Source: Chlamydiota bacterium
GTDB lineage: Bacteria; Auribacterota; Tritonobacteria; UBA1439
DNA: 34,751 bases
NCBI GenBank assembly: GCA_012729785.1
Contig: JAAYCL010000044.1
Location: 1-34,751, forward strand
Direction: 5' to 3'
The notes under the pieces were generated by a model. That model saw nothing but the letters and a program-made list of their open reading frames with translations, was not told the origin of the DNA and did no database searches. The translations under genes and the position numbers were made by a program. Below are positions 2,968-33,224 of the stretch, piece by piece; position 1 is the stretch's first letter; each line of letters begins with the position of its first letter.

Positions 2968-3454
2968 TCCCCGGCGCATCCTCATCCTCTGCGCGCTGCC
3001 GCTCCTGATGCAGGCGTGCGGCGGGGAGCCGCCGCGGATACCGCTCCCGGTCGCGACGCTCAGGGTGAGAGGGCGCGAGATCAGGGCCGAGGTCGCCCGC
3101 GCGCCGCGGGAGATGTCGCGCGGCCTGATGTACCGCCGCACACTGGGCAAAGACTCCGGGATGCTCTTCTCGTACGCCTCCCCGCGCCCCCTGAGCTTCT
3201 GGATGAAGAACACGCGCATCCCCCTCGATATCGCGTTCCTCGACGGGGAGGGCAGGATCCTCCAGATCGAGCAGATGCGCCCGTACGACGAGCTCCGGCG
3301 GACCGTCTCGCGGGAGCCCGCCCGGTACGCGCTCGAGATGAACCGCGGCTGGTTCGCGGCGCACGGGGTGGGGGCGGGGGACGTCGTGGAGATCCCCGGC
3401 GAGGCGCGGATCGGCGCGCCCCATGGGGCGTCCTCCCCCGGCGGAATTCGCTAG
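2957..3454 (+). CDS. DUF192 family lipoprotein
   Basis: A 165-residue predicted lipoprotein. A basic N-terminus and a hydrophobic stretch end in the lipobox LMQAC, with C21 as the acylated cysteine. The mature part (about residues 35-150) is a DUF192 domain, recognised by RGLMYR, GMLF, FWMKNTRIPLDIAF and LEMNRGWF. DUF192 proteins are small extracytoplasmic beta-barrel-like proteins of unsettled function. The start is GTG at 2957 inside the end of the DUF1189-like gene, so translation is probably coupled. The Gly/Ser/Pro-rich last 15 residues lie outside the domain. A later start would remove the signal peptide, so I keep 2957. Confidence 0.85.
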   Translation: MPRDPRRILILCALPLLMQACGGEPPRIPLPVATLRVRGREIRAEVARAPREMSRGLMYRRTLGKDSGMLFSYASPRPLSFWMKNTRIPLDIAFLDGEGRILQIEQMRPYDELRRTVSREPARYALEMNRGWFAAHGVGAGDVVEIPGEARIGAPHGASSPGGIR

Positions 3455-3467
3455 GGTGTGCGATGCG

Positions 3468-4409
3468 ATGAGAATCCTTTTCATGGGAACGCCTGGATTC
3501 GCGCTCCCTTCCCTCGACGCCCTCGCGGACGGAGGGCACGAGCTTGTCGCCGTGGCGACGCAGCCGGACCGCCCGCGCGGCAGGGGGCGCCTTGCCGCCG
3601 CGCCGCCGGTTAAGCGGCGCGCGATCGAGCGGGGGCTGCGCCTCCTCCAGCCCGCCTCCCCCGGCGAGGAGCGGTTCCTCGCCGAGGTGCGCGAGGCGGC
3701 CCCCGATCTGATCGCCGTGGTCGCGTACGGGAACTTTTTGCCGCAGGCGCTCTGGGGCCTGCCCCCGCGCGGCGCGATCAATCTGCACCCGTCGCTCCTC
3801 CCGAGATATCGGGGCGCGGCCCCGATACCGCGCGCGATCCTCGCCGGCGAGCGGGAGACCGGGGTGACCGTGCTGTACCTCGGCGAGGGGATGGACGCGG
3901 GGGACATCATCGCGCAGGAGCGGGTGCCGATTGCGCCGGACGACACCGGCGGCACCCTCGCGGAGATCCTCTCCCTGCGCGGGGGCGCCCTCCTCGCGGC
4001 GGCGGTCCGATCGATCGAGCGGGGCACATCCGTCCGGACGCCGCAGGACGAATCGGCGGCGACGTTCGCGCCGAAACTCGCCAAGTCCGACGGCCTCATC
4101 GACTGGCGGGCGCCTGCGGAGGAGATCGCGCTGAGGGTCAGGGCGCTGCAGCCGTGGCCGGGGGCGTACACGTCCGCCGCCGCGGCGGGCGCCCCGAGGA
4201 TGCTCAAGATCCTGGAGGCCTCGGTGTGCGCCGGGGAGTCCGGGGAAACGGGAAGGGTGCTGCGATGCGGAAACGAGGGGATACGGGTGGGCACCGGACG
4301 CGGGGTCCTCGTCATCCGGACGGTGCAGCCGGAGGGGGGAAGAGCGATGACGGCGCCGGAGTTCGCCCGCGGGCACCGCGGGATCGAGGGGACGGTACTC
4401 GGCAGGTGA
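3468..4409 (+). CDS. fmt: Methionyl-tRNA formyltransferase
   Basis: Transfers a formyl group from 10-formyltetrahydrofolate to initiator Met-tRNA in the cytoplasm, the counterpart of Def. The N-terminal formyltransferase domain begins with MRILFMGTPGFALPSL. The catalytic triad is visible as N105 and H107 (INLHPSLLPRYRGAAP) and D143 (GMDAGD). The C-terminal OB-like tRNA-binding domain follows (about residues 205-313), with RALQPWPGAYT. At 313 residues the length is normal. I chose the ATG at 3468 rather than an in-frame ATG at 3423 because the family starts at MRILFMGTP and the earlier start lies inside the DUF192 gene. The stop overlaps the proposed rsmB GTG by four bases; an fmt-rsmB pair is a common arrangement. 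Confidence 0.95.
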   Translation: MRILFMGTPGFALPSLDALADGGHELVAVATQPDRPRGRGRLAAAPPVKRRAIERGLRLLQPASPGEERFLAEVREAAPDLIAVVAYGNFLPQALWGLPPRGAINLHPSLLPRYRGAAPIPRAILAGERETGVTVLYLGEGMDAGDIIAQERVPIAPDDTGGTLAEILSLRGGALLAAAVRSIERGTSVRTPQDESAATFAPKLAKSDGLIDWRAPAEEIALRVRALQPWPGAYTSAAAAGAPRMLKILEASVCAGESGETGRVLRCGNEGIRVGTGRGVLVIRTVQPEGGRAMTAPEFARGHRGIEGTVLGR

Positions 4410-14014: not shown

Positions 14015-15505
14015 TCAGCGCGGCCTCTTCATGACGCCGAGCTCCCGGAGTTTCCGCAACGCCTTCCGGGGCGACCGGACCGCCGCCGCGGCGTACCGGG
14101 GGGTGAGGTAGCGCCGGAGCGCCCTCCTCCGGGCGCGCCGCGCCGCGTGCGCCTCCCAGGTCTTCGCCGCCGCGTTCCGCTCCTCGAGGATCTCTTCGGG
14201 GCCGAGGCTCTCTGTCCTCACCACCGCGTGGAAGAAGCCGTCGTACTCCTCCCAGTTCCTGCTGGTGATCTGTTTCCGCGACTCGAGCTCCGCGTAGAAG
14301 CGGCTCCCGGGGAACGGCGTGCTCACGGAGAACTGGACGGTGTCGGGGTCCATCCGCAGGCACCAGTCCACGCTCCTCCTGATCGTTTCCCTCGTCTCTC
14401 CGGGGAGGCCGAAGGTGAAGGTCAGGTGGTACAGGATCCCGAGCCTCCGCGTCTTCCGGATCATCGCCTCGGTCTTTTTCAAGTCCATCTGTTTGCCGCA
14501 GCGGTCGAGGATGCCCTGGTCGATCGACTCGACGCCGTATTTGACGGCGCGGAGCCCCGCTTCCTTGAGCGCGCGGAGCATCTCGCGGTCCATCAGGTCG
14601 GCCCGCGCCATCGCCGCCCACGGGATATCGAGGCGCCGCCTCCGGATCTCGCTGCAGATCGCGAGGATCCGCTCCTTCCCGATATTGAACGTGTCGTCGT
14701 CGAAGTAGACCGATCTGAACCCCTCCTCCCTGACGAGGTGCTCCATCTCGTCGACGACCTTGATCGGGTCGCGCGGGCGGTAGAGGCGGTTCCCGTAGAC
14801 GATCTGCGGCCAGGCGCAGAAGCTGCACCGGAACGGGCAGCCGCGGCTCGCCCACATCTGCACGCTCGGCTCGGGTATCCCCCCGGGCGTGTCGTGGTAG
14901 GCATCCATCGGGAGGAGGTGCCGCGCCGGCCAGGGGAGGGTATCCAGCTCCCGACAGAGGGGGCGCCGCGGGGCGGCCCGCGGGTCCCCTTCCGCGTCGC
15001 GATAGACGAGGCCGGCGATGCCGTCCGCGGAAGTCCCGGAGGCGAGGCGTCGCGCGAGCTCGAGGGCGGTCTGCTCGTATTCCCCTATGAACGAGAAGTC
15101 GACGGCGGGGTTCAGGCGGAGGAATTCCGGCTCGAAGGCGAGGACGTGGAGGCCGCAGACCGCGATCCGCGGCCGGTTCCCGACGCGCCGCCGCACGGCG
15201 TCGACGATGCGGAGGTCCTGCGAGAGCGAGATCGTGGAGATCTCGTGGATCAGGAGGTCGGGGTCGAAGGCGGCGAGCCGGTCGAGATACGCCTCGTCGG
15301 AGATCCGCTCGGCGCAGCCGTCGACCATGCGCACCTCGAAGCCGTCGCGTTCCAGCACCGCCGCCGCGTAGGCGAGGTGGAACGGAAACGGCATGTAGCG
15401 GCTGCTCTGGTGCTCGAAATGGGGCCAGCGGGACCCGGCGCGCACGCCGTAGTAGCCCGGCTTGCGCCACGGGGGGTTGCCGAGGAGCACCTTCATGGCC
15501 GACAT
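14015..15505 (-). CDS. B12-binding-domain radical SAM enzyme
   Basis: A 496-residue protein. Residues about 1-165 form a cobalamin-binding-like domain (KVLLGNPPW, YMPFPFHLAYAAAVLERDGFEV, ISTISLSQD, CGLHVLAFEPEFL, FIGEYEQT). The radical SAM core carries C223, C227 and C230 in RGCPFRCSFC for the [4Fe-4S] cluster. DDDTFNIG, KYGVESIDQ and FTFGLPGET follow, typical of this large class. The C-terminal 110 residues are basic and variable. Members methylate or rearrange unactivated carbons in lipids, antibiotics or cell-surface molecules; the substrate here cannot be told. It lies beside the glycan locus but points away, with no partner in its own direction. ATG 15505 has GATGAGG just upstream; ATG 15496 is an alternative. 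Confidence 0.88.
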   Translation of the reverse strand: MSAMKVLLGNPPWRKPGYYGVRAGSRWPHFEHQSSRYMPFPFHLAYAAAVLERDGFEVRMVDGCAERISDEAYLDRLAAFDPDLLIHEISTISLSQDLRIVDAVRRRVGNRPRIAVCGLHVLAFEPEFLRLNPAVDFSFIGEYEQTALELARRLASGTSADGIAGLVYRDAEGDPRAAPRRPLCRELDTLPWPARHLLPMDAYHDTPGGIPEPSVQMWASRGCPFRCSFCAWPQIVYGNRLYRPRDPIKVVDEMEHLVREEGFRSVYFDDDTFNIGKERILAICSEIRRRRLDIPWAAMARADLMDREMLRALKEAGLRAVKYGVESIDQGILDRCGKQMDLKKTEAMIRKTRRLGILYHLTFTFGLPGETRETIRRSVDWCLRMDPDTVQFSVSTPFPGSRFYAELESRKQITSRNWEEYDGFFHAVVRTESLGPEEILEERNAAAKTWEAHAARRARRRALRRYLTPRYAAAAVRSPRKALRKLRELGVMKRPR

Positions 15506-15732: not shown

Positions 15733-18003
15733 ATGGTCGTCGTGCGCTGGCTGCTGGTCGTCGAACTGCTGGGCGTCGCCTCCTGGCCGCTCTGCCTCGC
15801 CCTCTTCGGCCGCCTCCCCGACGGCGGTTTCGGCGTGGCGAGGCTGCTCGGCCTCCTTCTGGTCGGCTACGCGACCTGGCTCCCGGCCGGCGTGGGCCTC
15901 TTCCCGTTCGACGGCGCCTCGATCACCGCGGTCTTCCTCGTCTTCCTCTCCGCCTCCGCCCTCGCCGCCCGCGGCCGTCGCCGGGAACTGCGGCGCTTCA
16001 TCTCCGAACGGAAGGGGATCCTCGTCTTCGAGGAGCTTTTGTTCCTCTCCGTCTTCGCCGCCGCCGTATTCATCCAGGCGTACAAGCCCGACATCACCCT
16101 CGCCGAGAAGGAGCCGGACATGATGTTTCTCCAGTCCGTGCTCAGGGGGGGGGCGATGCCGCCGGAGGATCTCTGGTTCGCCGGGGAGCCGGTCAACTAC
16201 TACTATCTCGGCTACGCGCTTTTCGCCTGCCTCGTGCGCCTTGCCGCCGCGCGCCCCGAAATCGGCTTCAACCTCGCCGTCGCCACGGTGGTCCCGCTCG
16301 CCGCGCTCGGATCGTTCAGCCTGGCGTACAATCTCATCCGCCGCCGCGGGTGGGCGCTCCTCGCCCCGCTGTTCCTCCTCGGGCTCGGCAATCTCGACGC
16401 GCTCGTCCGCGCCGTCCGGGCCGGCGGGCTCGGGGGGAGGGACTGGTGGATCGAGATGTTCGCTCACGGCTCCCGGGAGATCCTCCCCGGCACCATCCAC
16501 GAGTTCCCCGCCTTCAGTTTCCTGCTCGGCGATCTGCACCCGCACTATATGTTCATGGCGTTCTGTTTCCTTCCCCTCACGCTGCTCCTCGTCCTCATCA
16601 AGGGCGGGGATGCATGCGCGCCCCCTCCCCCCGCCGTTCGCGCCGGGCGCAGGGGCGGCACGGCGAGCCCGCCCCCCGCGCCTGAATCCGCCTCCCCGGG
16701 GCGGGCCGCGGCGCCGGGATGGGGGCTCCCCTCCCTCTTCCTCGCCTTCGCGCTCGGCGCCGTGTTCATGTTCCACACCTGGGACTATCCGACCTACGTC
16801 CTGCTCACGGTCCTCTGCGCGTGCGCCTTCCTGCGTTTGCGCCGTCGCGGCGCGCCGGTGTGGCCGACGGCGGCGTGGCTCCTGCTCGTCGTGGCCGTGA
16901 GCGTCGTCCTGTTCCTGCCGTTCCGCCTCCGGTTCGCGCCCGCCGCGAAGCCGAGCGTCGGCCTGGTCGCGCCCGCCTACCGCTCGGCGCTCGGGCCGTT
17001 CCTGACGGTCAACGGCCTCGCCGCGGCGGCCCTCCTCTCCCTCCTCGCCGCGGAGGCGGCCGTGGCCGCGCGGGCGAAAGAGGGGGGCGGCGGCCTGCGT
17101 CTTCTCCTCCCCGCCGTCGTGGCGGCGGCCGCAGCGTGGCTGCTCACCGGGACGGCGGTCGCGGGCCTCGCGGCGGGCGGCGCCGCCGCCGCGGCGGCGC
17201 TCGCCTTCCCGCGCTCCGGCCCGCCGCCGGAGCGCCGCTTCGTCCTCCTCCTGGCCCTCGTCTGTTTCGCCCTCTTCCTCGGCTGCGAGATCGTCTACCT
17301 CAAGGACTTCTACGGGGAGAGGTTGCAGCGGCAGAACACCGTCTTCAAATACTACTTCCAGGCCTGGATCCTCGCCTCGGTCGTTTTCGCCGCCGGGGGG
17401 TGCGGGGTCGCGGCGTCGCTTTCGGGGGCGTGGCGGGCTGCGTGGCGGGTCCTCCTCGCCGCCCTCGTCGTCCCGTCGCTCATCTACCCGGTGCTCGGGA
17501 CCTGGCACCGGTGCGGGCGTTTCCGCGGCGGGGGGAGGGGGGCGGCCCCGTACCTGCCGACGCTCGACGGCGCCGCCTACATCAGGCACCTGTACCCGGG
17601 CGAGTACCGGGCGCTCGGTTGGGTGCGGGGCTGGGTGCCCCCCGGGGCGGTTGTTTTGGAGGCCACCGGCGACCCGTACAGCTTCCACGGAAGGGTCTCC
17701 ACCTTCACCGGCCGTCCGACGGTGCTCGGCTGGGGGAACCAGGAGTCGCTCTGGCGCGACTGGAGCTGGAAGAAGATCACGGAGCGGAGCGGGGAGATCG
17801 CCCGCATCTACGGTGCGACCGTCAAGCGGGAGGCGCTGCCGCTGCTCCGGAAGCACCGCGTCTCCTACGTCTACGTCGGCACGCTGGAGCGGAAGAAGTA
17901 CCCGCGGGCGGGTCTGGACGCCTTTGCCGGCGCGTTCCCGCTCGTCTACCGGGGGAGGGACGTGCTGATCTACCGCGTCCCGGGGGAGGGGGCCGCCTCG
18001 TGA
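15733..18003 (+). CDS. Stand-alone YYY-motif (DUF2298) integral membrane protein
   Basis: A 756-residue, strongly hydrophobic protein with many membrane segments. It has the signature NYYYLGY (155-161) of the Chlor_Arch_YYY/DUF2298 family. The further conserved blocks HEFP (256-259) and DLHPHY (267-272) fall in a loop after GLGNLDALVRA, and RQNTVFKYYFQAW lies near 17335. The last about 160 residues are an extracytoplasmic-looking domain (GAVVLEATGDPYSFHG, VLGWGNQESLW). Such proteins are thought to act in surface glycosylation alongside GT39/Agl23-like enzymes, but the reaction is not established. ATG 15733 is preceded by GGAGG; the frame upstream to 15526 lacks protein character. A 4-base overlap couples it to the GT2 gene. 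A Pro/Ala-rich insert sits near residues 295-330. Confidence 0.85.
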   Translation: MVVVRWLLVVELLGVASWPLCLALFGRLPDGGFGVARLLGLLLVGYATWLPAGVGLFPFDGASITAVFLVFLSASALAARGRRRELRRFISERKGILVFEELLFLSVFAAAVFIQAYKPDITLAEKEPDMMFLQSVLRGGAMPPEDLWFAGEPVNYYYLGYALFACLVRLAAARPEIGFNLAVATVVPLAALGSFSLAYNLIRRRGWALLAPLFLLGLGNLDALVRAVRAGGLGGRDWWIEMFAHGSREILPGTIHEFPAFSFLLGDLHPHYMFMAFCFLPLTLLLVLIKGGDACAPPPPAVRAGRRGGTASPPPAPESASPGRAAAPGWGLPSLFLAFALGAVFMFHTWDYPTYVLLTVLCACAFLRLRRRGAPVWPTAAWLLLVVAVSVVLFLPFRLRFAPAAKPSVGLVAPAYRSALGPFLTVNGLAAAALLSLLAAEAAVAARAKEGGGGLRLLLPAVVAAAAAWLLTGTAVAGLAAGGAAAAAALAFPRSGPPPERRFVLLLALVCFALFLGCEIVYLKDFYGERLQRQNTVFKYYFQAWILASVVFAAGGCGVAASLSGAWRAAWRVLLAALVVPSLIYPVLGTWHRCGRFRGGGRGAAPYLPTLDGAAYIRHLYPGEYRALGWVRGWVPPGAVVLEATGDPYSFHGRVSTFTGRPTVLGWGNQESLWRDWSWKKITERSGEIARIYGATVKREALPLLRKHRVSYVYVGTLERKKYPRAGLDAFAGAFPLVYRGRDVLIYRVPGEGAAS

Positions 18004-18764
18004 ACGCTTCCGTCCGCCTCTCCGTGGTGATCCCCGCCTACAACGAAGAGGAGCGGCTCGGGCCGACGCTCGGGCGGATCCTCGACTACCTGTCCGGGTG
18101 CGGGTACCCGTTCGAGATCATCGTGGTGGACGACGGCTCCACCGACGGGACCGCGGCGGTGGCGCGGCGCGTTTCGGAAACGCACCGATCCGTGCGGCTC
18201 GTCCCGAACGAGACGAACCGGGGCAAGGGGTACTCGGTCCGCCGGGGGGTGGAGGAGGCGCGAGGGGAGTACATCCTCTTCTCCGACGCCGACCTCTCGA
18301 CCCCGATCGAGGAGCTGCGGCGGCTCTTCCCGCCCCTCCTCGAGGAAGGGTGCGATATCGCCATCGGGTCGCGGGCGGCCCGCGGTTCCGATGTGCGCGT
18401 CCACCAGCCCTGGTACCGCGAGCTGATGGGCAAGATATTCAACAAGATCGTCCGTCTCGTCGCCGTGCGGGGCCTGAGGGACACGCAGTGCGGCTTCAAG
18501 CTCTTCCGCGGCGCGGTCGCCCGGGAGCTCTTCGCCGCCCAGCGGGTCGAGGGCTTCTCGTTCGACGTGGAGACGCTCTACCTTGCGCGCAAGGCGGGCC
18601 GCCGCATCGCGGAGGTGCCGGTGACCTGGTACAATTCCCCCCGCAGCCGCGTGAGTATCGTGGGCGACCCGGCGCGGATGTTCCTCGACGTGCTGCGGAT
18701 ACGGCTCGACGACCTCAGGGGCCGGTACCGGCCGGGCGCCCCCCGGCGGAGGGAACGATCGTGA
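18000..18764 (+). CDS. GT2 glycosyltransferase, dolichyl/polyprenyl-phosphate glucosyltransferase-like
   Basis: A 254-residue GT-A enzyme starting LSVVIPAYNEEERL. The nucleotide-sugar motif VVDDGSTDG has D44 and D45, the metal-binding DxD-type FSDADLS has D96 and D98, and RGKGYSVRRG and DTQCGFKLFRG are typical of ALG5/DPG-synthase-like proteins. No membrane helix is evident at the C-terminus, so it probably works at the inner face. It likely transfers a hexose from UDP- or GDP-sugar to polyprenyl phosphate, making the donor for GT-C/YYY enzymes. The sugar is not predictable; UDP-glucose or UDP-galactose would fit the galE gene. It overlaps both neighbours by four bases (GTGA at 18000-18003 and 18761-18764), a strong sign that all three act together. 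Confidence 0.88.
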   Translation: MNASVRLSVVIPAYNEEERLGPTLGRILDYLSGCGYPFEIIVVDDGSTDGTAAVARRVSETHRSVRLVPNETNRGKGYSVRRGVEEARGEYILFSDADLSTPIEELRRLFPPLLEEGCDIAIGSRAARGSDVRVHQPWYRELMGKIFNKIVRLVAVRGLRDTQCGFKLFRGAVARELFAAQRVEGFSFDVETLYLARKAGRRIAEVPVTWYNSPRSRVSIVGDPARMFLDVLRIRLDDLRGRYRPGAPRRRERS

Positions 18765-21700
18765 CGCGGCACCGCGCGGCGCTCATCGCCGCCCTCGTTT
18801 TCGGCGCTGCGCTCCGTTTCTACGGCCTCGACTGGGGGAGGCCGAACATCTTCCACCCCGATGAGGCGCGCATCTCCTACGCGCTCGGCGACATCGACCG
18901 CCAGGTCAGGGAGATCGAGGCGCGCGCGGGGCGGGGCGAGGCGGTGACGCTTCTCGAGCGTCTCGACGCCCATAACCCGCACTTCTTCGCCTACGGTTCC
19001 CTCCCGCTGCTCATGATGCGCGGCGCGCAGCGCCTCTTCGCGCGCAGCGATCCGTTCCTGGTCGGGCGCGCCCTCTCGGCCGCCTTCGACACGCTCACCA
19101 TCCTCCTCGTCTACCTGCTCGGCGCCCGCCTCTTCTCGCGGCGCGCCGGCTGCCTCGCCGCCCTCTTCTTCTCGTTCGCGGTCCTGCAGATTCAGCTCTC
19201 CCACCTGCTCACGGTGGATGTGATGCTCGCGAGCCTCGTCACCGCCTCGGTCTGGTTTTCGGCGCGGGTGATGGCGGAGGGGAGGTGCAGGGACTACGCC
19301 CTCGCGGCGGCCTCTGCCGGGCTGGCGCTCGCGACGAAGGTGACCGCCCTCCCCGTGCTGCTGCCGCTCCTCTTCGCCCACGGGGCGCTTCTCGTCCGGC
19401 GCGGCCGCCCCTTCTCGGCGGCCGGGTGGGCGAAGCTTTTCGCGGCTCTTCTCGTGACGGCGGCGGTCTTTGCGGCCGCGGAGCCGTTCTTCTTCCGCGA
19501 TCACCGCGAGTTCATGCGTCAGCTCATCGAGCAGAAGAACATGGTCCGGGGGCACTGGGCCCCGCCGTGGACGCTCCAGTACGAGCACACCCTGAAAGGA
19601 TTCTATCAGCTCAAGAACCTCCTCGCCTACGGCCTCGGGGTCCCGGCGGGCGCCCTCCTCCTTTTCGGCGCGGGGTTCCTCGTCGTTCGAACCGTCCGCC
19701 GGCCCGACCGCGGGGTGGTGCTCCTCCTCGCCTGGTTTGTGCCGGTGGCGGCGGCGACCGTCTCCTTCAAGGTGAAGTTCCTCCGCTATCTCGCCCCCCT
19801 CGTCCCGTTCCTCTGCGTGCTCGGCGCGGGCGGGATCTGCCTTCTCGTCGCCGAGGCGCGGCGCCCCCTCGTGCGGCGCCTGCTGGCGTTGGCGGCGGGG
19901 GCCGCGGTCGCCTTCTCCCTCTTCTACGCCGCCGCCTACACGAGCATCTACCGCAGCGAGGACACGCGCATCGAGGCGTCGAACTGGATCTACCGGAACG
20001 TCCCGCCCCGCTCCACCATCCTCGGCGAGACGTGGGAGTTCTGCGTCCTGCCGGCGCACACCCCCGCCGGGGACCCGGGGAGGTTGCGCTACACGGTCAC
20101 CGCGCTCGACATCTACCGGCCCGACGACCGCGCCAAGGTCCGCCTCCTCGCCGCGCAACTCGCCAAGGGCGACGTCATCGCCCTCCCGACGAAGCGGATG
20201 TACGGATCGGTTTTGCGGGTGCCCGATCGGTACCCGTTCAGCGCCAACTACTACCGGCTCCTCTTCGAGGGGCGGCTCGGCTACACGCTCGTCAAGAGCT
20301 TCAGCTCCCGTCCGCGTCTGGCGGGGGTCGTCTTCAACGACGATTTCGCCGACGAGAGCTTCACCGTCTACGACCACCCGAAGGTCCTCATCTTCCGGAA
20401 CACGGGGCGCTATTCCGCCGAGCGGATCGAGCGGCTGATCCGCGCCGAGCCGAAGAGGGACTGGTGGCCGGTGCTCGACGCGGCGCTCGCCGCGGACGAG
20501 ACGAAACCGCCCTGGGGCGGGGCGGAGGCCGGCCCCGCGCCCCCCGACGCCGCCGCGGGGCGCCGGGGGGCCTGGGCGCTCCTCGCCTGGCTTTTCGCGG
20601 CGGAGGCGCTCGGTCTGATCGCCCTGCCGCTGGCCGCCTCCCTCCTCGGCGGGCTGAGGGACCGGGGCGGCGCGTTCGCCAAGACCCTGGGCATCGCCCT
20701 CGTCGGCTGGATCGTCTGGTTCTCCTCGAGCCTGCGGATCGCCCCGTTCTCGCTCCCGTCGATCCTCCTGGCCTGCGGCCTCGTGCTCCTCGCCTCGCTC
20801 GCGCTCGCCGGACGGGGGTGCGGCTGGCGCCGCTTCTCGGGGGGGGCGTACCGGGCGGCGCTCGCCTCCGAGGCGGTCTTTCTCGCCTCGTTTCTCCTCT
20901 TCGCCCTCTTCCGCCTGTACAACCCCGACATATTCTGGAGCGAGAGCTCAATGGACTTCTCGTTCATCAACTCGATCCTCCGCTCCCGCTATCTCCCCCC
21001 GATCGACCCGTGGGCATCCGGCGTCTTCCTGAACTACTACTACTACGGGCACTACCTTGTCGCGATGCTCGCGATGCTCGCCGGCGTCCCGTCGACCGTC
21101 GCCTATCCGCTCGCCTTCTGCCTGATCCCCGCCCTCGTGATCTCGTCCGTCTTCTCGATCGCGCTGACCCTCGCCGGGCGGATCCGGTGGGGGCTGGCGG
21201 GGGCCGCCGCGGCCGGTATCCTCGGAAACCTCGACGGCTTCTTCCTCCTGATCGACGGGTTCCGAGGGCGGGAGGCGTTCTACCGCCTCCTCCGCCTGAG
21301 GATGCCCACGGGGTTCGAGCATTCGTACCGGTTTTTCCGCTGCGCGCACGAGGTGATCCCGAACACGGTCCACGAGTTCCCGTTCTGGAGCTTCATCTTC
21401 GTCGATCTCCACGCGCACCTGATCGCCATGCCGTTCGTCCTCCTCCTCGTTGCCCGCGCGCTGGACCTCGTGCTGCGGCGCCGTCCACCCGACCCGCGCA
21501 CCGGGGAGTCCGGCGCGGCGAATTTCGCCGCGACGGCGATCGCGTTCGGGACGCTCGTGCCGACGAACACCTGGGATTTCCCGACGCTCGGCGGCGTCCT
21601 CGCCCTCGCCCTCTTCCTGCGCGGGCTCATCCGGCGCCGGGAGGAGGCCCGCGGGGTCCCGCTCGCCGCCTACTCGATCTGGTGGGGCTGCGGGTTCGGC

Positions 21701-23908
21701 GGCCGCCTGATCCGTTCCCTGATGAGCGTTATGCGCCTCGAGGGGCCGGTCGGGAGGCCGCTCGGGGCGCTGCTCGACGCCTCCCGCTCGTTCCTCTTCC
21801 TCGCGGCGGCGGCGGTGGCGGCGTTTACGCCGTTTTTTCTCTGGTTCGGCCGCGAGGGGATGGGGATCGGCCTCGTGGGGGGGCTCACGACGCCCGCGGG
21901 GGCGCTGCTCCGCTTCTTCGGGCTCTTCCTGTCCCTGATCGCCGCGTACGTCGCGATGGAGCTTTTCCGGTTCATCGACGGGGGGCGCGGCCTCGTGCGG
22001 CGCTTCGCGTTCGTGCTCCTCCTCTTCCTCGCGGCGTGCCTGCCGTGGGCGGCCGCCGGGCGGACGGGCGCGCCGGACTACGCCTCCCTCTCCCTCGTCC
22101 TCCTGCTGCTCCTGCCCGGCTTCGTTGTCCTCTGGAGGAACCGGCGCGACGCAGGCGCGGTCTTCTCCCTCCTCCTGGTCCTCTACGGTTTGGCGATCGT
22201 GGCCGCCTGTGAGCTGTTCCACATACGCGACTTCCTCCAGGGCGGGGTCTGGAAGAGGATGAACACCATCTTCAAGTTCTACATCCCGGTATGGTTCTTC
22301 TTCTCCATCGGCGGCGCCTACATCCTGAGCCGCGTGGCGGCGCGCGGGCCGCAGCCGCCGGGCCGGATGGCGCGCCTGATCGGCCGCCTGACGCGAACGT
22401 CCTGGTGGACCGTCTTCTCCCTTCTCGTCGCGGCCTCGTCCGTCTTCACCGTGATGGGGCCCCGCGCGCGGACGACCGGGGACGACCTGTACCCGAGGAC
22501 GGGGCTGGAACCGCCCGCCGCGGGCCGCGTCGGCTTCCCGCGCACCCTCCTGCCGCGCCTGCGGATCGACCCGACGCTGGACGGGCTCGCCTGGATGCGC
22601 GAGCGGCTCCCCGACGAGTGCGAGGCGGTCGAGTGGCTTCGCCGGAGCGTCGGCGGGCAGCCGGTGATCGCCGAGGCGACGCTCGAGGACTACCGGTACG
22701 AGTACGCGCGCATCAGCTCCAACACCGGACTCCCCGCGGTCCTCGGCTGGTGGAGCCATGTGGACCAGCGCGGCTACCCGTTCCGCGACATCCGCAGGAA
22801 CGACGTCTCCGCCCTCTACCGCTCCGACGACCCCGAGGAGATCCGAACGCTCGCGGCCAAGTACGGCATCGACTACGTCTGCGTCGGCGCCACGGAGCGC
22901 CGCGCCTACACGCCGGCGCAGCTCGCCAAGTTCGACCGGATGCCGGGGCTGTTCAGGCCGGCGTTCAGGAACAAAACGGTCACCGTGTACCGCCTCGCGC
23001 GCGCGCCGGCGCCGGACGCCGGGGAGGCGCCCGCCGCGGCGGGTCCCGCCCCCGCTTCGACGGCGGCCCCGAAGGCCTCCCTCCGCGGCGCCGGGGAGGG
23101 GGAGGGGCCGGGCGAGTACAGGGAGCCGCGCGGGATCGCCGTGGACGTGAACGGCAACGTCTACGTGGCGGATTTCAGGAATGCGCGGATCCAGAGGTTC
23201 GGCCCCGACGGGCTCTTCATCGGGATGTGGGGGGAGGAGGGGGATCTCCCCGGGCAGTTCAAGGACCCGTGCGACGTCAAGGCGGACGCGAAGGGGGGGA
23301 TCTGGGTTGCGGACACGTTCAACCACCGGATCCAGTCGTTCGTCGCCGACGGGACATTCGTCGCATCGTACGAGGGCGGGCTCTTCGCGCCGCGCGGGAT
23401 CGCGGTGGACGGACGGGGGCGCGTCTGGGTCTCCGACACGGGCAACGGGGCGGTCAAGCTGTTCACGGCGCCCGGCGATCCGCCGCGTCTGATCGGAAGC
23501 AAAGGGACCGGGGACGGGGAGTTCGACATGCCCGTCGGGATCGCGGTGGACCGGGAGGGGCGGGTGTACGTGGCCGACGCGGGCAACCGGCGCGTCCAGG
23601 TGCTCGACCGGGAGGGGAACTACCTTCGCCAGTTCCCGGTCGACGGGTGGCGGGGCGGGGCCTTCAACGAGCCGTACCTCGCGCTGGACGGGCGCGGCGG
23701 CATCTACCTCACCGACCCCCTCGGGCACCGCGTCCTCAAATATTCGAGCCGGGGTGAGCTCCTCGGGACGCTCGAACCGTCCGAGGGGGGAAAACCGCTC
23801 CTCCAGTTCCCGATGGGGATCGCGGTCGGGAACGACGGCGCGACGGTGCTCCTGGTCGACTGCCGGAACCACATGGTGCGCTCCTTCGACGCGCGGGAGT
23901 TCCGCTGA
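18761..23908 (+). CDS. Giant GT39-like / YYY (DUF2298) / NHL-propeller fusion membrane protein
   Basis: A 1715-residue single open frame from a GTG overlapping the GT2 stop; ribosome-binding site GGCGGAGGG lies about nine bases upstream. Domain 1 (about 1-580) resembles PMT/GT39, Agl23-like glycosyltransferases: FHPDEARISYAL with the acidic pair D34/E35, many membrane segments, then an extracytoplasmic part with WIYRNVPPRSTILGETWE. Domain 2 (about 600-1420) is a full YYY protein: NYYYYGHY (758-765), HEFP (871-874), DLHAH (882-886), KRMNTIFKFY, then an outer domain with VLGWWSHVDQRG. After an Ala/Pro linker, six NHL repeats (1453-1715, e.g. PRGIAVDVNGNVYVADFRN) form a six-bladed propeller, presumably outside the cytoplasm. 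It may accept lipid-linked sugars from the GT2 product, with the propeller binding target protein or glycan. PMT plus YYY fusion is plausible from known families; the NHL addition is unfamiliar to me. Confidence 0.85.
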   Translation: MTRHRAALIAALVFGAALRFYGLDWGRPNIFHPDEARISYALGDIDRQVREIEARAGRGEAVTLLERLDAHNPHFFAYGSLPLLMMRGAQRLFARSDPFLVGRALSAAFDTLTILLVYLLGARLFSRRAGCLAALFFSFAVLQIQLSHLLTVDVMLASLVTASVWFSARVMAEGRCRDYALAAASAGLALATKVTALPVLLPLLFAHGALLVRRGRPFSAAGWAKLFAALLVTAAVFAAAEPFFFRDHREFMRQLIEQKNMVRGHWAPPWTLQYEHTLKGFYQLKNLLAYGLGVPAGALLLFGAGFLVVRTVRRPDRGVVLLLAWFVPVAAATVSFKVKFLRYLAPLVPFLCVLGAGGICLLVAEARRPLVRRLLALAAGAAVAFSLFYAAAYTSIYRSEDTRIEASNWIYRNVPPRSTILGETWEFCVLPAHTPAGDPGRLRYTVTALDIYRPDDRAKVRLLAAQLAKGDVIALPTKRMYGSVLRVPDRYPFSANYYRLLFEGRLGYTLVKSFSSRPRLAGVVFNDDFADESFTVYDHPKVLIFRNTGRYSAERIERLIRAEPKRDWWPVLDAALAADETKPPWGGAEAGPAPPDAAAGRRGAWALLAWLFAAEALGLIALPLAASLLGGLRDRGGAFAKTLGIALVGWIVWFSSSLRIAPFSLPSILLACGLVLLASLALAGRGCGWRRFSGGAYRAALASEAVFLASFLLFALFRLYNPDIFWSESSMDFSFINSILRSRYLPPIDPWASGVFLNYYYYGHYLVAMLAMLAGVPSTVAYPLAFCLIPALVISSVFSIALTLAGRIRWGLAGAAAAGILGNLDGFFLLIDGFRGREAFYRLLRLRMPTGFEHSYRFFRCAHEVIPNTVHEFPFWSFIFVDLHAHLIAMPFVLLLVARALDLVLRRRPPDPRTGESGAANFAATAIAFGTLVPTNTWDFPTLGGVLALALFLRGLIRRREEARGVPLAAYSIWWGCGFGGRLIRSLMSVMRLEGPVGRPLGALLDASRSFLFLAAAAVAAFTPFFLWFGREGMGIGLVGGLTTPAGALLRFFGLFLSLIAAYVAMELFRFIDGGRGLVRRFAFVLLLFLAACLPWAAAGRTGAPDYASLSLVLLLLLPGFVVLWRNRRDAGAVFSLLLVLYGLAIVAACELFHIRDFLQGGVWKRMNTIFKFYIPVWFFFSIGGAYILSRVAARGPQPPGRMARLIGRLTRTSWWTVFSLLVAASSVFTVMGPRARTTGDDLYPRTGLEPPAAGRVGFPRTLLPRLRIDPTLDGLAWMRERLPDECEAVEWLRRSVGGQPVIAEATLEDYRYEYARISSNTGLPAVLGWWSHVDQRGYPFRDIRRNDVSALYRSDDPEEIRTLAAKYGIDYVCVGATERRAYTPAQLAKFDRMPGLFRPAFRNKTVTVYRLARAPAPDAGEAPAAAGPAPASTAAPKASLRGAGEGEGPGEYREPRGIAVDVNGNVYVADFRNARIQRFGPDGLFIGMWGEEGDLPGQFKDPCDVKADAKGGIWVADTFNHRIQSFVADGTFVASYEGGLFAPRGIAVDGRGRVWVSDTGNGAVKLFTAPGDPPRLIGSKGTGDGEFDMPVGIAVDREGRVYVADAGNRRVQVLDREGNYLRQFPVDGWRGGAFNEPYLALDGRGGIYLTDPLGHRVLKYSSRGELLGTLEPSEGGKPLLQFPMGIAVGNDGATVLLVDCRNHMVRSFDAREFR

Positions 23909-23933: not shown

Positions 23934-26486
23934 CTACCGCTCCCGCGTCAGGCGTATGTCGTCGAACCAGGCGCACCCCTTCGAGGTCCCCCATCCGCCG
24001 ATGTAGACGGCGAGCGGGTGGCGCTGGTCGTTCTCGATGCGGAACTTCATCTCCCGGTAGGTCCAGTCGTAGGTCCCCGCGGGCCAGACGAGGGATTTGT
24101 CCTCCATCCCCTCCAGCCCCACCAGGGCGCCCTTGCCCCCGGTGGAGAGGCGCTCGGCCTTCGCCCAGCCGCTCAAAAGGTAGGTGCGGCCGGCCTCCAG
24201 GAATACCTGCTGGACGACGCCCCCGTCGCCGCCCTCCGCGCTGCAGATCCTCAAACACCGTTTTCCCTCCCGGGACGGGGTCTCCTCCACGCGCGTCTCT
24301 ACGGACGGCTTGAATGTCTTGGCGCTCCACCCCTCGGGCATCCCCTGGTTGTCCACGAGCTCGAAGCTGGGGTTCTGGAGCGTCGCCGGCCCGCCGGGGG
24401 AGGCAGCCTCCTCCACCGCCGGGCTCGGGGGGGCGCGGCGCGCCGGGGCGGGCCTGATCGCCCCCTTGTCCGTCTTCAGCACCTTGTAGAGGATGAGGTG
24501 GTCGGATTCGTACTCCACGCGGAACAGGGACGGCGGGACGGCGGAAAACCCGGCTTGTTTGAAGAGATTGTCCAGCCCGCGCCTGTTCAGAAGGAGGTAG
24601 TCGGCGCCCAGATGCCCGCTCAAGGTTGCGGCGGTCTGGAAATCCCTCGCCGCGAAGATCTCGTCCCTCGCCCGCATGATCTCGGCGTGGAACGGGGAAT
24701 CGTTCACGTACTCCGGAACGATGTGCGAGACGGAGCCGCGGAAGGAGATCGTCGCGAGCATGGAGGCCAGGTAGTCGAGCGGTTCGTTCGGGGCGACGAT
24801 GAAACTGTCGGGCGGGGTGTGGTCCCGGATCCAGACGAACTCCTCGTGAAGCGTGCACGGCATGGTCAGCGGTCTTGACCGGTGCCGCACCTCGTAGACG
24901 GTGCCGTAGAGCCCGATCGCCAGGCAGGCGAGGAGGGGGAGCAGGAGGCAGAGGCGCGCGCGGATCCCCCTGAACCGTTCCATGAACAGACAGCAGAACC
25001 GGCCGGTGAAGACGCTGAGGGAGATCTGGGCGGGGATGATGCAGCGCATCCCCCAGTCGTTCCAGAGCGCGGACTTCCGCACGCTGATCGCGGCGAACGG
25101 GATCAGCGCGGCGCAATACAGGAAGAGGGGGAGGAACGAGAACTCCTTCCGGCGGAGAGCCCAGCAGATCCCCGCGATCCCCAAAAGATAGGTGGCGCCG
25201 AACTCCAGCGGGTAGGCGACGAACCAGACCGTCGCGTACTGCCAGAAACGGCCGATCTTCAACTGCCATGCGTGCGGGTAAAACGGGGTCAGCGCGTTCG
25301 CCCCCGAGGCGGCCAGGATCTGATCGAGGGAGAGGAGGCCGCCGCAGACGGGAATCAGGATGACGAGGAGGGCCGGGGTCAGCCGGCCGCGGCGGGTAAC
25401 GCCGATCAGGAGCTGCGCCGCTCCCGCCGCGAGCAGGAGCATCCCTCCGATGCCCGCGATGAAGAGACTGTACCCGACCATCGCCCTGAAGAGCACGGCG
25501 GCCAGCAGGGCGTACCTGTACCGGACCGAGGCCCCGGGCGCCTCCTGCATCTCCCGGGTCAGAACGGCGATCAGCAGAAGGACGGCGGCGCCGAACAGGT
25601 GCTGCGGGACCCAGATGAAAAGGGAGTAGAAGGTATTCACCAGCGGGAGCTCGCCCAGCATCCCCATCGTGCCGTTCCATCGGTCGATATGGTGGTGGTC
25701 GAGGATCCCGAAGTGGCGCAGCGGCAGGATATCGAGGCCGTAGGCGACGGTCATGCAGAGCAGCGCGATGAAGACGCCGCACCGGCACCGAAGATACGAC
25801 CGGCTCACCAGGTACGCCATCCCGATGAACAGGAGGCTGGTGACGAGGATCTGGATCCCCCAGCAGGTCGGCAGGCCGAGCGCCCCCCCCGAGAGCGCCT
25901 GGAGCATGGCGACGGGCAGATGGTAGCCGAAGTAGTAGGTCAGCGTCTTCAGGGCGAAGAACGGGTTGGCGGGGGGGTACCCGGTCGAGAGGAGGGCGCC
26001 GGTGAAGGCGAGGTTCTTCTTGAAATCGCCGACCTCCGGCAGATAGGCGATCGCTTTCCCGAGGTGCGGAAAGAAGCAGCAGGCGTAGGGCAGGTAGACG
26101 GCGTAGAGGGTGCCCAGGCACAGGAGGCAGAGGGCGGCGCGCCACGGCGTCGGCCGCGGGAAGGAGATAGACGGGGGGGAGGGGGGGGAGGCGAGGAACA
26201 GCGCCCACGCCGCGGCGGCGAACGCGGCCAGGATCGACGACGGCGCGAACCCGAGGAGGGAGGCGGCGTAGTGCAGGAAGAGGGAGCTCAGGGCGAGGCT
26301 GGTTGTGGCGCAGACGATCGCGTTCCTGACGTTCATGACGGCGTAGTCGTCGCTCACCAGGCGCAGGGCGAGGAAGCCGAACAGGAAGGACGAGAGGGCG
26401 AAGAAGGAGAGCGCCGGGAAGAGATGCACCGCGCCCCAGACGACGAACGCCGCGCCGGCCGCGCGCGCGAGCGAGGAGCGCTTCAT
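23934..26486 (-). CDS. Divergent YYF-motif membrane protein with C-terminal carbohydrate-binding-like domain
   Basis: An 850-residue protein with numerous membrane segments up to about residue 560. It then has an outer globular part (FVWIRDHTPPDSFIVAPNEP) and a terminal domain at 705-850. That domain begins NPSFELVDNQGMPEGWS and ends AWFDDIRLTR, the usual frame of CBM4/9-like jelly-roll modules. The layout echoes YYY proteins: NPFFALKTLTYYFGYHLPVAML sits where the YYY motif would be, WVPQHLFGAA replaces the HEFP/DLHxH block, and WNDWGMRCIIP replaces the NTxFK block. A GT-C-type enzyme or glycan translocation protein is inferred. It starts inside the stop of the upstream GT39-like gene (ATGA), so both are made together. 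A CCTGCCGGCAGG palindrome (23917-23928) lies between it and the convergent fusion gene. Confidence 0.78.
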   Translation of the reverse strand: MKRSSLARAAGAAFVVWGAVHLFPALSFFALSSFLFGFLALRLVSDDYAVMNVRNAIVCATTSLALSSLFLHYAASLLGFAPSSILAAFAAAAWALFLASPPSPPSISFPRPTPWRAALCLLCLGTLYAVYLPYACCFFPHLGKAIAYLPEVGDFKKNLAFTGALLSTGYPPANPFFALKTLTYYFGYHLPVAMLQALSGGALGLPTCWGIQILVTSLLFIGMAYLVSRSYLRCRCGVFIALLCMTVAYGLDILPLRHFGILDHHHIDRWNGTMGMLGELPLVNTFYSLFIWVPQHLFGAAVLLLIAVLTREMQEAPGASVRYRYALLAAVLFRAMVGYSLFIAGIGGMLLLAAGAAQLLIGVTRRGRLTPALLVILIPVCGGLLSLDQILAASGANALTPFYPHAWQLKIGRFWQYATVWFVAYPLEFGATYLLGIAGICWALRRKEFSFLPLFLYCAALIPFAAISVRKSALWNDWGMRCIIPAQISLSVFTGRFCCLFMERFRGIRARLCLLLPLLACLAIGLYGTVYEVRHRSRPLTMPCTLHEEFVWIRDHTPPDSFIVAPNEPLDYLASMLATISFRGSVSHIVPEYVNDSPFHAEIMRARDEIFAARDFQTAATLSGHLGADYLLLNRRGLDNLFKQAGFSAVPPSLFRVEYESDHLILYKVLKTDKGAIRPAPARRAPPSPAVEEAASPGGPATLQNPSFELVDNQGMPEGWSAKTFKPSVETRVEETPSREGKRCLRICSAEGGDGGVVQQVFLEAGRTYLLSGWAKAERLSTGGKGALVGLEGMEDKSLVWPAGTYDWTYREMKFRIENDQRHPLAVYIGGWGTSKGCAWFDDIRLTRER

Positions 26487-31815: not shown

Positions 31816-31844
31816 TTGAATCCAGCCTTGCCGTGCGGTATCAT
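31816..31844 (+). promoter_or_regulatory. Sigma70-like promoter giving a leaderless mRNA for the GT2-methyltransferase gene
   Basis: TTGAAT (31816-31821), a 17-base spacer and TATCAT (31839-31844); the ATG at 31851 is six bases past the -10, at the expected transcription start. No ribosome-binding site is present. An AT-rich stretch (31780-31800) upstream could act as an UP-like element. The rest of the 185-base gap after the flippase has only the hairpins noted there. Confidence 0.65.
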
Positions 31845-31850
31845 GCCGCC

Positions 31851-33224
31851 ATGAAGCTCTCCGTGGTGATCCCGGCCTACAACGAGATCTGCACCATCGT
31901 CGAGCTCCTCCGCAGGGTGAAGGCCGTCCCGATCGAAAAGCAGATCGTCGTCGTCGACGACTGCTCCATCGACGGGACGCGAGAGGAGCTCTCCCGCATC
32001 GCCGCGGCCGACCCCTCGATCACCCTCGTGTTGCACGACCGGAACCTCGGCAAGGGCGCGGCCCTGCGGACCGGCTTCAGGCACGCGACGGGGGATATCC
32101 TCATCGTGCAGGACGCCGACCTCGAATACTACCCCGAGGAGTACCCGAAGCTGATCGAACCGATCGTCGGCGGGAAGGCGGACGTGGTCTACGGCTCCCG
32201 CTTCCTCGGCACGCACCGCGTCTTCATGTTCTCCCACTACCTCGGCAACAAGCTGCTGAACCTCTGCACCAACATCCTCTACAACTGCATCTTCACCGAC
32301 ATGGAGACCTGCTACAAGGCGTTCCGCAGGGAGGTCCTGGAGGGGATGCGCCTCCGCTCCGACAGCTTCGGTTTCGAGCCGGAATTCACCGCCAACGTGA
32401 TGAAGCGCGGCTACAAGGTCTACGAGGTCCCGATCTCGTACGACGGCAGGTCGTACACGGAGGGGAAGAAGATCACCTGGCGGGACGGCTTCGTCGCCCT
32501 CTGGTGGCTCATCCGCTGCCGTTTCGAGCCGCTCGACATCGGGCGGGAGACGCTTGTCAGGATGGAGAAGGTGCGGCGCTACAACGACTGGATCCACGAG
32601 CAGGTGCGCCCGTTCCTCGGGCGGCGCATCCTCGAGGCGGGAGCGGGGATCGGCAACATCACGCGCAAGCTCCTCGGCCGCGAGCTGGTGATCGCCTCCG
32701 ACGTCTCGGAGGGCCACCTCCAGACGCTGCGCACCCGCTTCGTCGGGAGCCCCCGCCTGAGGATCATCCCGCTCGACCTCGACCGCTGCGGCGCGGACGC
32801 GCTCGCCGGCGAGAGGATCGACACCGTGCTCTGCCTCAACGTCCTCGAGCATGTCGGGGACGACGCCCGCGCCCTCCGGTTCTTCCGAGAGCTGCTCGTG
32901 CCCGGGGGGCGGCTCGTGCTCCTCGTCCCCGCCTGCCCGTCGCTCTACTCGAGGATCGACGCCGGGCTCGAGCACCACCGGCGCTACGGCCGCGCGGAGC
33001 TCTGCAGCAAAATGGAGGAGGCGGGTTTCCGCGTCGAGCGGATCGGGTTCCTCAACCTCCTCGGGGCGGTCGGGTGGTTCGTGAACGGGAAGATACTGAG
33101 AAGGAAAATGCTGCCGAAGAACCAGCTCGCCTTCTTCGACCTGCTCGTCCCGTTCCTCCGGTTCGAGCGGCGCCTGAGGATCCCGTTCGGCCTCTCCCTG
33201 CTGGCGGTGGGCAGGAAGGAGTAG
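31851..33224 (+). CDS. Bifunctional GT2 glycosyltransferase / SAM-dependent methyltransferase
   Basis: A 457-residue two-domain protein. Residues 1-230 are a GT2 domain of the DPM-synthase-like type: LSVVIPAYNE, VVVDDCSIDG (D36, D37), IVQDADLEYYP (D88, D90), GSRFLG, ETCYKAFRR and SFGFEPEFTA. Residues about 245-457 are a class I methyltransferase: ILEAGAGIGN (260-269), CLNVLEHVGDD (328-338), PGGRLVLLVP and EHHRRYGRAEL. This fusion type is known in bacterial genomes. It probably makes a polyprenyl-linked sugar and methylates a lipid or glycan intermediate; substrates are unknown. The ATG at 31851 is set by the promoter just upstream and by the GT2 start. It ends convergent to the next gene. Confidence 0.9.
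   Translation: MKLSVVIPAYNEICTIVELLRRVKAVPIEKQIVVVDDCSIDGTREELSRIAAADPSITLVLHDRNLGKGAALRTGFRHATGDILIVQDADLEYYPEEYPKLIEPIVGGKADVVYGSRFLGTHRVFMFSHYLGNKLLNLCTNILYNCIFTDMETCYKAFRREVLEGMRLRSDSFGFEPEFTANVMKRGYKVYEVPISYDGRSYTEGKKITWRDGFVALWWLIRCRFEPLDIGRETLVRMEKVRRYNDWIHEQVRPFLGRRILEAGAGIGNITRKLLGRELVIASDVSEGHLQTLRTRFVGSPRLRIIPLDLDRCGADALAGERIDTVLCLNVLEHVGDDARALRFFRELLVPGGRLVLLVPACPSLYSRIDAGLEHHRRYGRAELCSKMEEAGFRVERIGFLNLLGAVGWFVNGKILRRKMLPKNQLAFFDLLVPFLRFERRLRIPFGLSLLAVGRKE

Follow-up and report, generated by a model that had tools for sequence, protein, structure and literature searches.

The window, by which we mean the whole stretch of 34,751 nucleotides analysed, lies in a glycan cluster with genes for a Wzx-like flippase, GT2 and group-1 glycosyltransferases, and PMT_2 proteins. 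In the window, three genes are translationally coupled on the forward strand (Table 1): a solo YYY/DUF2298 gene, a GT2 gene, and a long gene in which a PMT-like module, a YYY module, and an NHL propeller are joined. Both junctions of this trio are 4-nt overlaps (GTGA). The frame containing the solo YYY gene matches PF10060 with 331 bits and TIGR03662 with 475 bits. The fusion begins at a GTG with GGAGGG ahead of it, ends with a stop at 23906–23908, and has 1715 codons without an internal stop. The frame opposing it on the antisense strand (18761–23908, −) has one stop only, and was judged a G+C-rich shadow frame.

A gene for a B12-binding radical SAM protein lies beside the cluster (14015–15505, −) and is 75% identical in G023, a genome of the same family. 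A 463-aa protein combining GT2 and methyltransferase domains (31833–33224, +) is conserved in another family member, G020. G020 also keeps an 850-aa protein (23934–26486, −) that has a sub-threshold C-terminal CBM_4_9 match; the place of this gene is occupied by GT39-like and NHL genes in G021 and G023.

Table 1. Coordinates of the coupled genes, the modules of the fusion, and the near-identical propeller DNA of a relative
Feature	Position	Strand	Extent	Basis or remark
Solo YYY/DUF2298 protein	15733..18003	+	756 aa	ATG 15733, upstream GGAGG; first of coupled trio
GT2, dolichyl/undecaprenyl-phosphate sugar synthase type	18000..18764	+		GTG 18000; PF00535, 118 bits
PMT-YYY-NHL fusion	18761..23908	+	1715 aa	Frame and profile searches
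GT39/PMT_2-like GT-C module with its own outer domain	18761..20560	+	residues 1-600	PF13231
YYY/DUF2298 module: multi-span membrane part and outer domain	20576..22996	+	residues 606-1412	TIGR03662
Ala/Pro-rich linker	22997..23095	+	residues 1413-1445	Sequence and low model confidence
Six-bladed NHL propeller	23096..23896	+	residues 1446-1712	PF01436, PDB profiles, Foldseek
Near-identical propeller DNA in G023	L050:522-1335 and 3201-4014	−		Two different genes

The first-pass annotation had read the long frame as a PMT-like domain, a complete YYY/DUF2298 domain, and NHL repeats without interruption, and the profile searches bear this out, with all three domain matches above cut-off. In Pfam, PMT_2 (PF13231) matches residues 90–236 with 55.3 bits against a gathering cut-off of 26.1, DUF2298 (PF10060) is covered over its full model at residues 647–1181 (321.8 bits, E 1e-95), and NHL (PF01436) scores 102 bits. 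The NCBIfam model TIGR03662 (chlor_Arch_YYY) spans the YYY module with 502.3 bits, against a curated cut-off of 300.25, and profile matches of the propeller to NHL domains of the PDB reach E-values down to 3e-64. Hydropathy shows two multi-span blocks followed by a long C-terminal outer part.

In an AlphaFold model of residues 600–1715 (pLDDT 77, pTM 0.69; 12 sequences), many helices make up the membrane part, which is followed by a small outer domain, a linker without order, and six blades, seen as six antiparallel sheets between about residues 1456 and 1710. The earlier count of exactly six NHL repeats thus agrees with the model, against which the propellers of the NHL proteins Thin and TRIM2 reach target TM-scores of 0.84–0.88 (Foldseek, PDB); among the matches listed, all are NHL or designed propellers. 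A fixed interface between the propeller and the YYY module, for which structure prediction had been proposed, did not emerge: residues 1416–1437 of the Ala/Pro-rich linker are the lowest-confidence stretch of the model (pLDDT ~30).

A separate model of residues 1–620 (pTM 0.81) matches STT3, AglB, ArnT, ALG12, and Pmt4 in the PDB with a Foldseek probability of 1.00, and ALG9 as well; the target TM-score to ALG12 is 0.58. As modelled, the PMT-like module has a GT-C fold. Directly after its first hydrophobic segment lies an HPDE motif (residues 32–35), of which P33, D34, and E35 are invariant in seven sequences, including one from Gottesmanbacteria, and D34-E35 in alignments A1 and A4. Acidic residues of the GT-C type are thus present in the predicted first outer loop. 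The YYY module carries its YYYxG motif as YYYYG at 759–763, with Y759–Y761 and G763 invariant in alignment A1, and 11 residues (E728, D749, N823, E872, D882, H884, W938, D939, D1157, N1168, and K1172) are invariant in 21 diverse YYY proteins. Searched against the PDB, the YYY profile gave chance-level matches only, mostly to triosephosphate isomerases. In hhalign, it matched the PMT-module profile over 27 columns only. Because profile comparison yields no solved relative and so short a match to PMT, we treat the YYY module as a putative GT-C enzyme and putative transferase.

Conservation of the fusion and of its gene order

Single-frame PMT-YYY-NHL proteins number 18, including that of the window, and come from three little-known phyla, Auribacterota and two others. 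Within the family, G021, G022, and G023, which are independent MAGs, carry the full protein at 56–59% identity over the whole length, and G020 and G024 have pieces of it at contig ends. Candidatus Tritonobacter lacicola (G019), an auribacterote of the same class as the window, has the full architecture at 39% identity. The same domain order in a single frame is found in five genomes of a second phylum, sampled by eight genomes and including G262 and G120, and in eight genomes of a third, sampled by 14. The architecture had first been regarded as unfamiliar, and this survey no longer allows it to be called unique or rare; it is conserved, yet undescribed in the papers we found. Our literature searches found neither a paper describing PMT-YYY-NHL nor anything relevant on combinations of NHL with GT-C. 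DUF2298 itself is scarcely mentioned in the literature searched, and in one paper it occurs only in a gene list of the appendix. A plasmid search for the fusion returned NHL-only or YYY-tail matches, and PADLOC gave a single 19-bit match in the propeller region that was judged to be chance. The NHL regions of the proteins at two loci (L141:5007-10760, +; L143:287-6289, −) are ~460–510 residues long, about twice the usual, and probably hold two tandem propellers.

PMT-YYY proteins without a propeller occur in three other phyla (those of G278 and G140, of G107, and of G103), and in the first of these they are present in four of four genomes. A tree of 38 PMT-YYY proteins places the window clade nearest two propeller-less proteins and has at least two changes between presence and absence of NHL, so that gain of the propeller cannot be separated from loss, and the fusion to NHL may have arisen once or more than once.

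Coupling to the GT2 gene, which had been proposed from the window, extends through the family as well as resting on the two overlaps. In G021, G023, and G024, the GT2 gene likewise stands ahead of the fusion, and in G022 the two share one frame, which encodes a GT2-PMT-YYY-NHL protein of 1953 codons (L051:1224-7085, −), although a single indel error in the MAG may account for this last case. The propeller of this G022 protein is short by ~36 residues. The closest solved relatives of the orthologous GT2 of G021 are the archaeal DPMS 5mlz, ArnC, and sll0501. No such GT2 stands directly ahead of the fusion in G019, G262, or G120, and the coupling is therefore not universal. Homologues of the solo YYY gene stand at the same place in G021, G022, G023, and G019.

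NHL propellers in neighbouring genes

In G023, the fusion and a neighbouring 808-aa NHL gene share propeller DNA that is identical at 803 of 812 positions (99%), in a match that starts and ends with the domain; no DNA match between the two genes was found outside it. The contig name in this MAG gives a coverage of ~5x, and the assembler could have collapsed similar repeats, in which case 99% would be too high a figure. More generally, the fusion propellers of the family fail to separate as a clade from those of neighbouring genes, and a tree constrained to keep the two apart is rejected by the AU test (p-AU 5e-6, in a set including the split G020 row). Judged from these sequences, the identity in G023 likely goes back to a recent event, either gene conversion or a transfer of the domain from one of the two genes to the other. 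Exchange limited to one domain between different genes would point to a shared binding partner, and propellers exchanged at one locus most likely have a single target in common on both proteins. An exchangeable docking role fits this pattern at least as well as target recognition does.

NHL propellers also accompany YYY as separate proteins. In the G107 phylum, we took 20 loci around solo YYY genes, picked from the YYY search alone, and found tandem NHL genes nearby in 15 of the 16 loci with room for them. The one exception is L173; of the others, L179 ends within its first NHL gene, and L132, L176, and L189 end too soon. These NHL genes lie on the same strand as YYY, in most cases directly downstream of it or with a single GT39-like gene in between. 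In the stand-alone NHL proteins, an N-terminus that is Lys-rich or short is followed by a single hydrophobic anchor and this by the propeller, an order that puts the propeller outside under the positive-inside rule. This agrees with the outward-facing propeller suggested earlier for the fusion, where the domain follows the last predicted membrane segment and the YYY outer domain. Several loci of the G103 phylum have GT39-like proteins with C-terminal NHL beside YYY genes; these loci were chosen for having both matches on one contig, and the clustering there is not an unbiased count.

Such PMT_2-NHL proteins (GT39-like, ~800–1100 aa) share with the fusion a GT-C-like membrane part and a C-terminal NHL propeller, which within the family has been exchanged with that of the fusion, and they adjoin YYY genes, but unlike the fusion they have no YYY module. 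One of 950 aa is encoded on the window's own contig beyond the window (L054:3301-6153, +), and its propeller groups with PMT_2-NHL proteins of G262 and G120 and not with the window fusion.

A candidate surface-glycosylation machine and its alternatives

We lean towards reading the fusion as a one-chain cell-surface glycosyltransferase machine that uses polyprenyl-phosphate sugars, with the propeller as an exchangeable docking module. The GT2 would make polyprenyl-phosphate hexose on the inner membrane face. On the outer face, the PMT-like module, which like other GT-C enzymes has a DE pair in its first outer loop, would use the lipid-linked sugar, as the YYY module, in which other acidic residues are conserved, may likewise do, and the two modules would glycosylate an extracytoplasmic acceptor. 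Held outside the membrane on its flexible linker, the propeller would dock a common partner, putatively the acceptor glycan or protein or else sister enzymes of the cluster, and keep it near the active sites. In favour of this machine we count the anatomy of the fusion and its recurrence in three phyla, the coupling to GT2, the GT-C fold seen for the PMT-like module, and the fact that YYY and NHL are genetically linked. Counted against it are that the propeller is dispensable in cis, being absent from the PMT-YYY proteins of three other phyla, and that the coupling to GT2 is not found everywhere. The original proposal of transfer and target recognition combined in one outward-facing enzyme thus stands as regards the fusion, the outward propeller, and the GT2 coupling, while target recognition is one possible role. 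A more tentative extension, which we would not yet bet on, makes the propeller a common receptor passed on by domain-limited gene conversion, so that all enzymes of a modular surface-glycosylation machine would dock to the same target.

To our knowledge, DUF2298/YYY proteins are widespread and uncharacterised, and we know of none with a demonstrated activity. YYY gains a testable role in extracytoplasmic glycosylation from its fusion to PMT-like and NHL domains in three phyla, from the tandem NHL genes beside it in another phylum, and from the coupling to GT2, once as a fusion.

The propeller could instead be a scaffold that gathers the cluster enzymes (PMT-YYY, solo YYY, GT39-like, and GT2) and does not read the acceptor at all. 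The tandem, separately membrane-anchored NHL proteins beside solo YYY, the swapping of propeller sequences between genes, and a linker that appears flexible in the model would all suit such a role, which we think possible if somewhat doubtful, given that RNA is among the ligands that NHL propellers bind, as in the structures of Brat and Lin41, and that the MIR beta-trefoils of other GT-C enzymes bind sugar (PMC7759382).

A role of the PMT-like module as a flippase of lipid-linked sugar, feeding polyprenyl-phosphate hexose to a YYY module that alone performs transfer, is unlikely. The possibility arises because Agl23 of Haloarcula, a putative hexose-P-dolichol flippase, moves lipid-linked oligosaccharide in liposomes when purified (PMC11182771), and a weak match to the Agl23 model TIGR03663 does sit in the right place. 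That match, however, scores 22.3 bits against a cut-off of 126.25, and other PMT-YYY proteins also fall below it, so that an Agl23 label, for which the first-pass annotation had proposed a search, was dropped; moreover, the module retains the DE pair and its model resembles the transferases STT3, ArnT, ALG12, and Pmt4.

An origin of the long frame from separate genes, joined by an assembly or frame error, can be dismissed for the architecture: every genome is a MAG assembly, the propeller frame is broken in G020, and PMT and YYY-NHL lie in two frames in G390, but same-order single frames recur in 18 genomes, in independent MAGs and three phyla, and within the family 56–59% identity runs across every junction.

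Relation to known protein classes

Genes of the haloarchaeal, flippase-associated Agl23 family lie near YYY genes, and the family has an HGP tripeptide. Like the fusion, Agl23 has a PMT-like module with a DE pair, but the fusion has AYGS in place of HGP and lies far below the family cut-off. The eukaryotic GT39 O-mannosyltransferases resemble the fusion in that a GT-C membrane enzyme bears a beta-rich accessory domain on the outer side and is likely supplied with its donor by a DPM-type GT2; the fusion differs in being bacterial, in its C-terminal NHL propeller, and in a second membrane module, YYY, that is unrelated by sequence. The Pfam scan found no MIR family in the fusion, which thus lacks the luminal MIR beta-trefoil of GT39 sensu stricto. 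In eukaryotic PMTs, the MIR domain binds sugar and has an effect on processivity (PMC7759382), and by analogy the propeller may have a comparable role.

The two-copy class of TIGR03662/DUF2298 proteins, with its extra N-terminal region and TPRs, shares with the fusion a YYY domain, a long N-terminal region, and a repeat domain after YYY, but has a second YYY and TPRs where the fusion has one YYY and an NHL propeller. Some proteins of the G103 phylum are PMT-YYY-YYY, to which G374 adds TPRs. Their N-terminal regions score 503–592 bits with a PMT profile rebuilt from PMT-YYY proteins, and those of G374 and G244 exceed 200 bits even with a first profile built from Auribacterota fusions alone, by which the long N-terminal part of such YYY proteins is recognised as PMT-like. 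PMT-YYY-YYY proteins with a PMT-like N-terminus by profile lie at L096:5580-13469 (−), L097:6180-14501 (−), and L098:2890-10716 (+), the first of them with TPRs.
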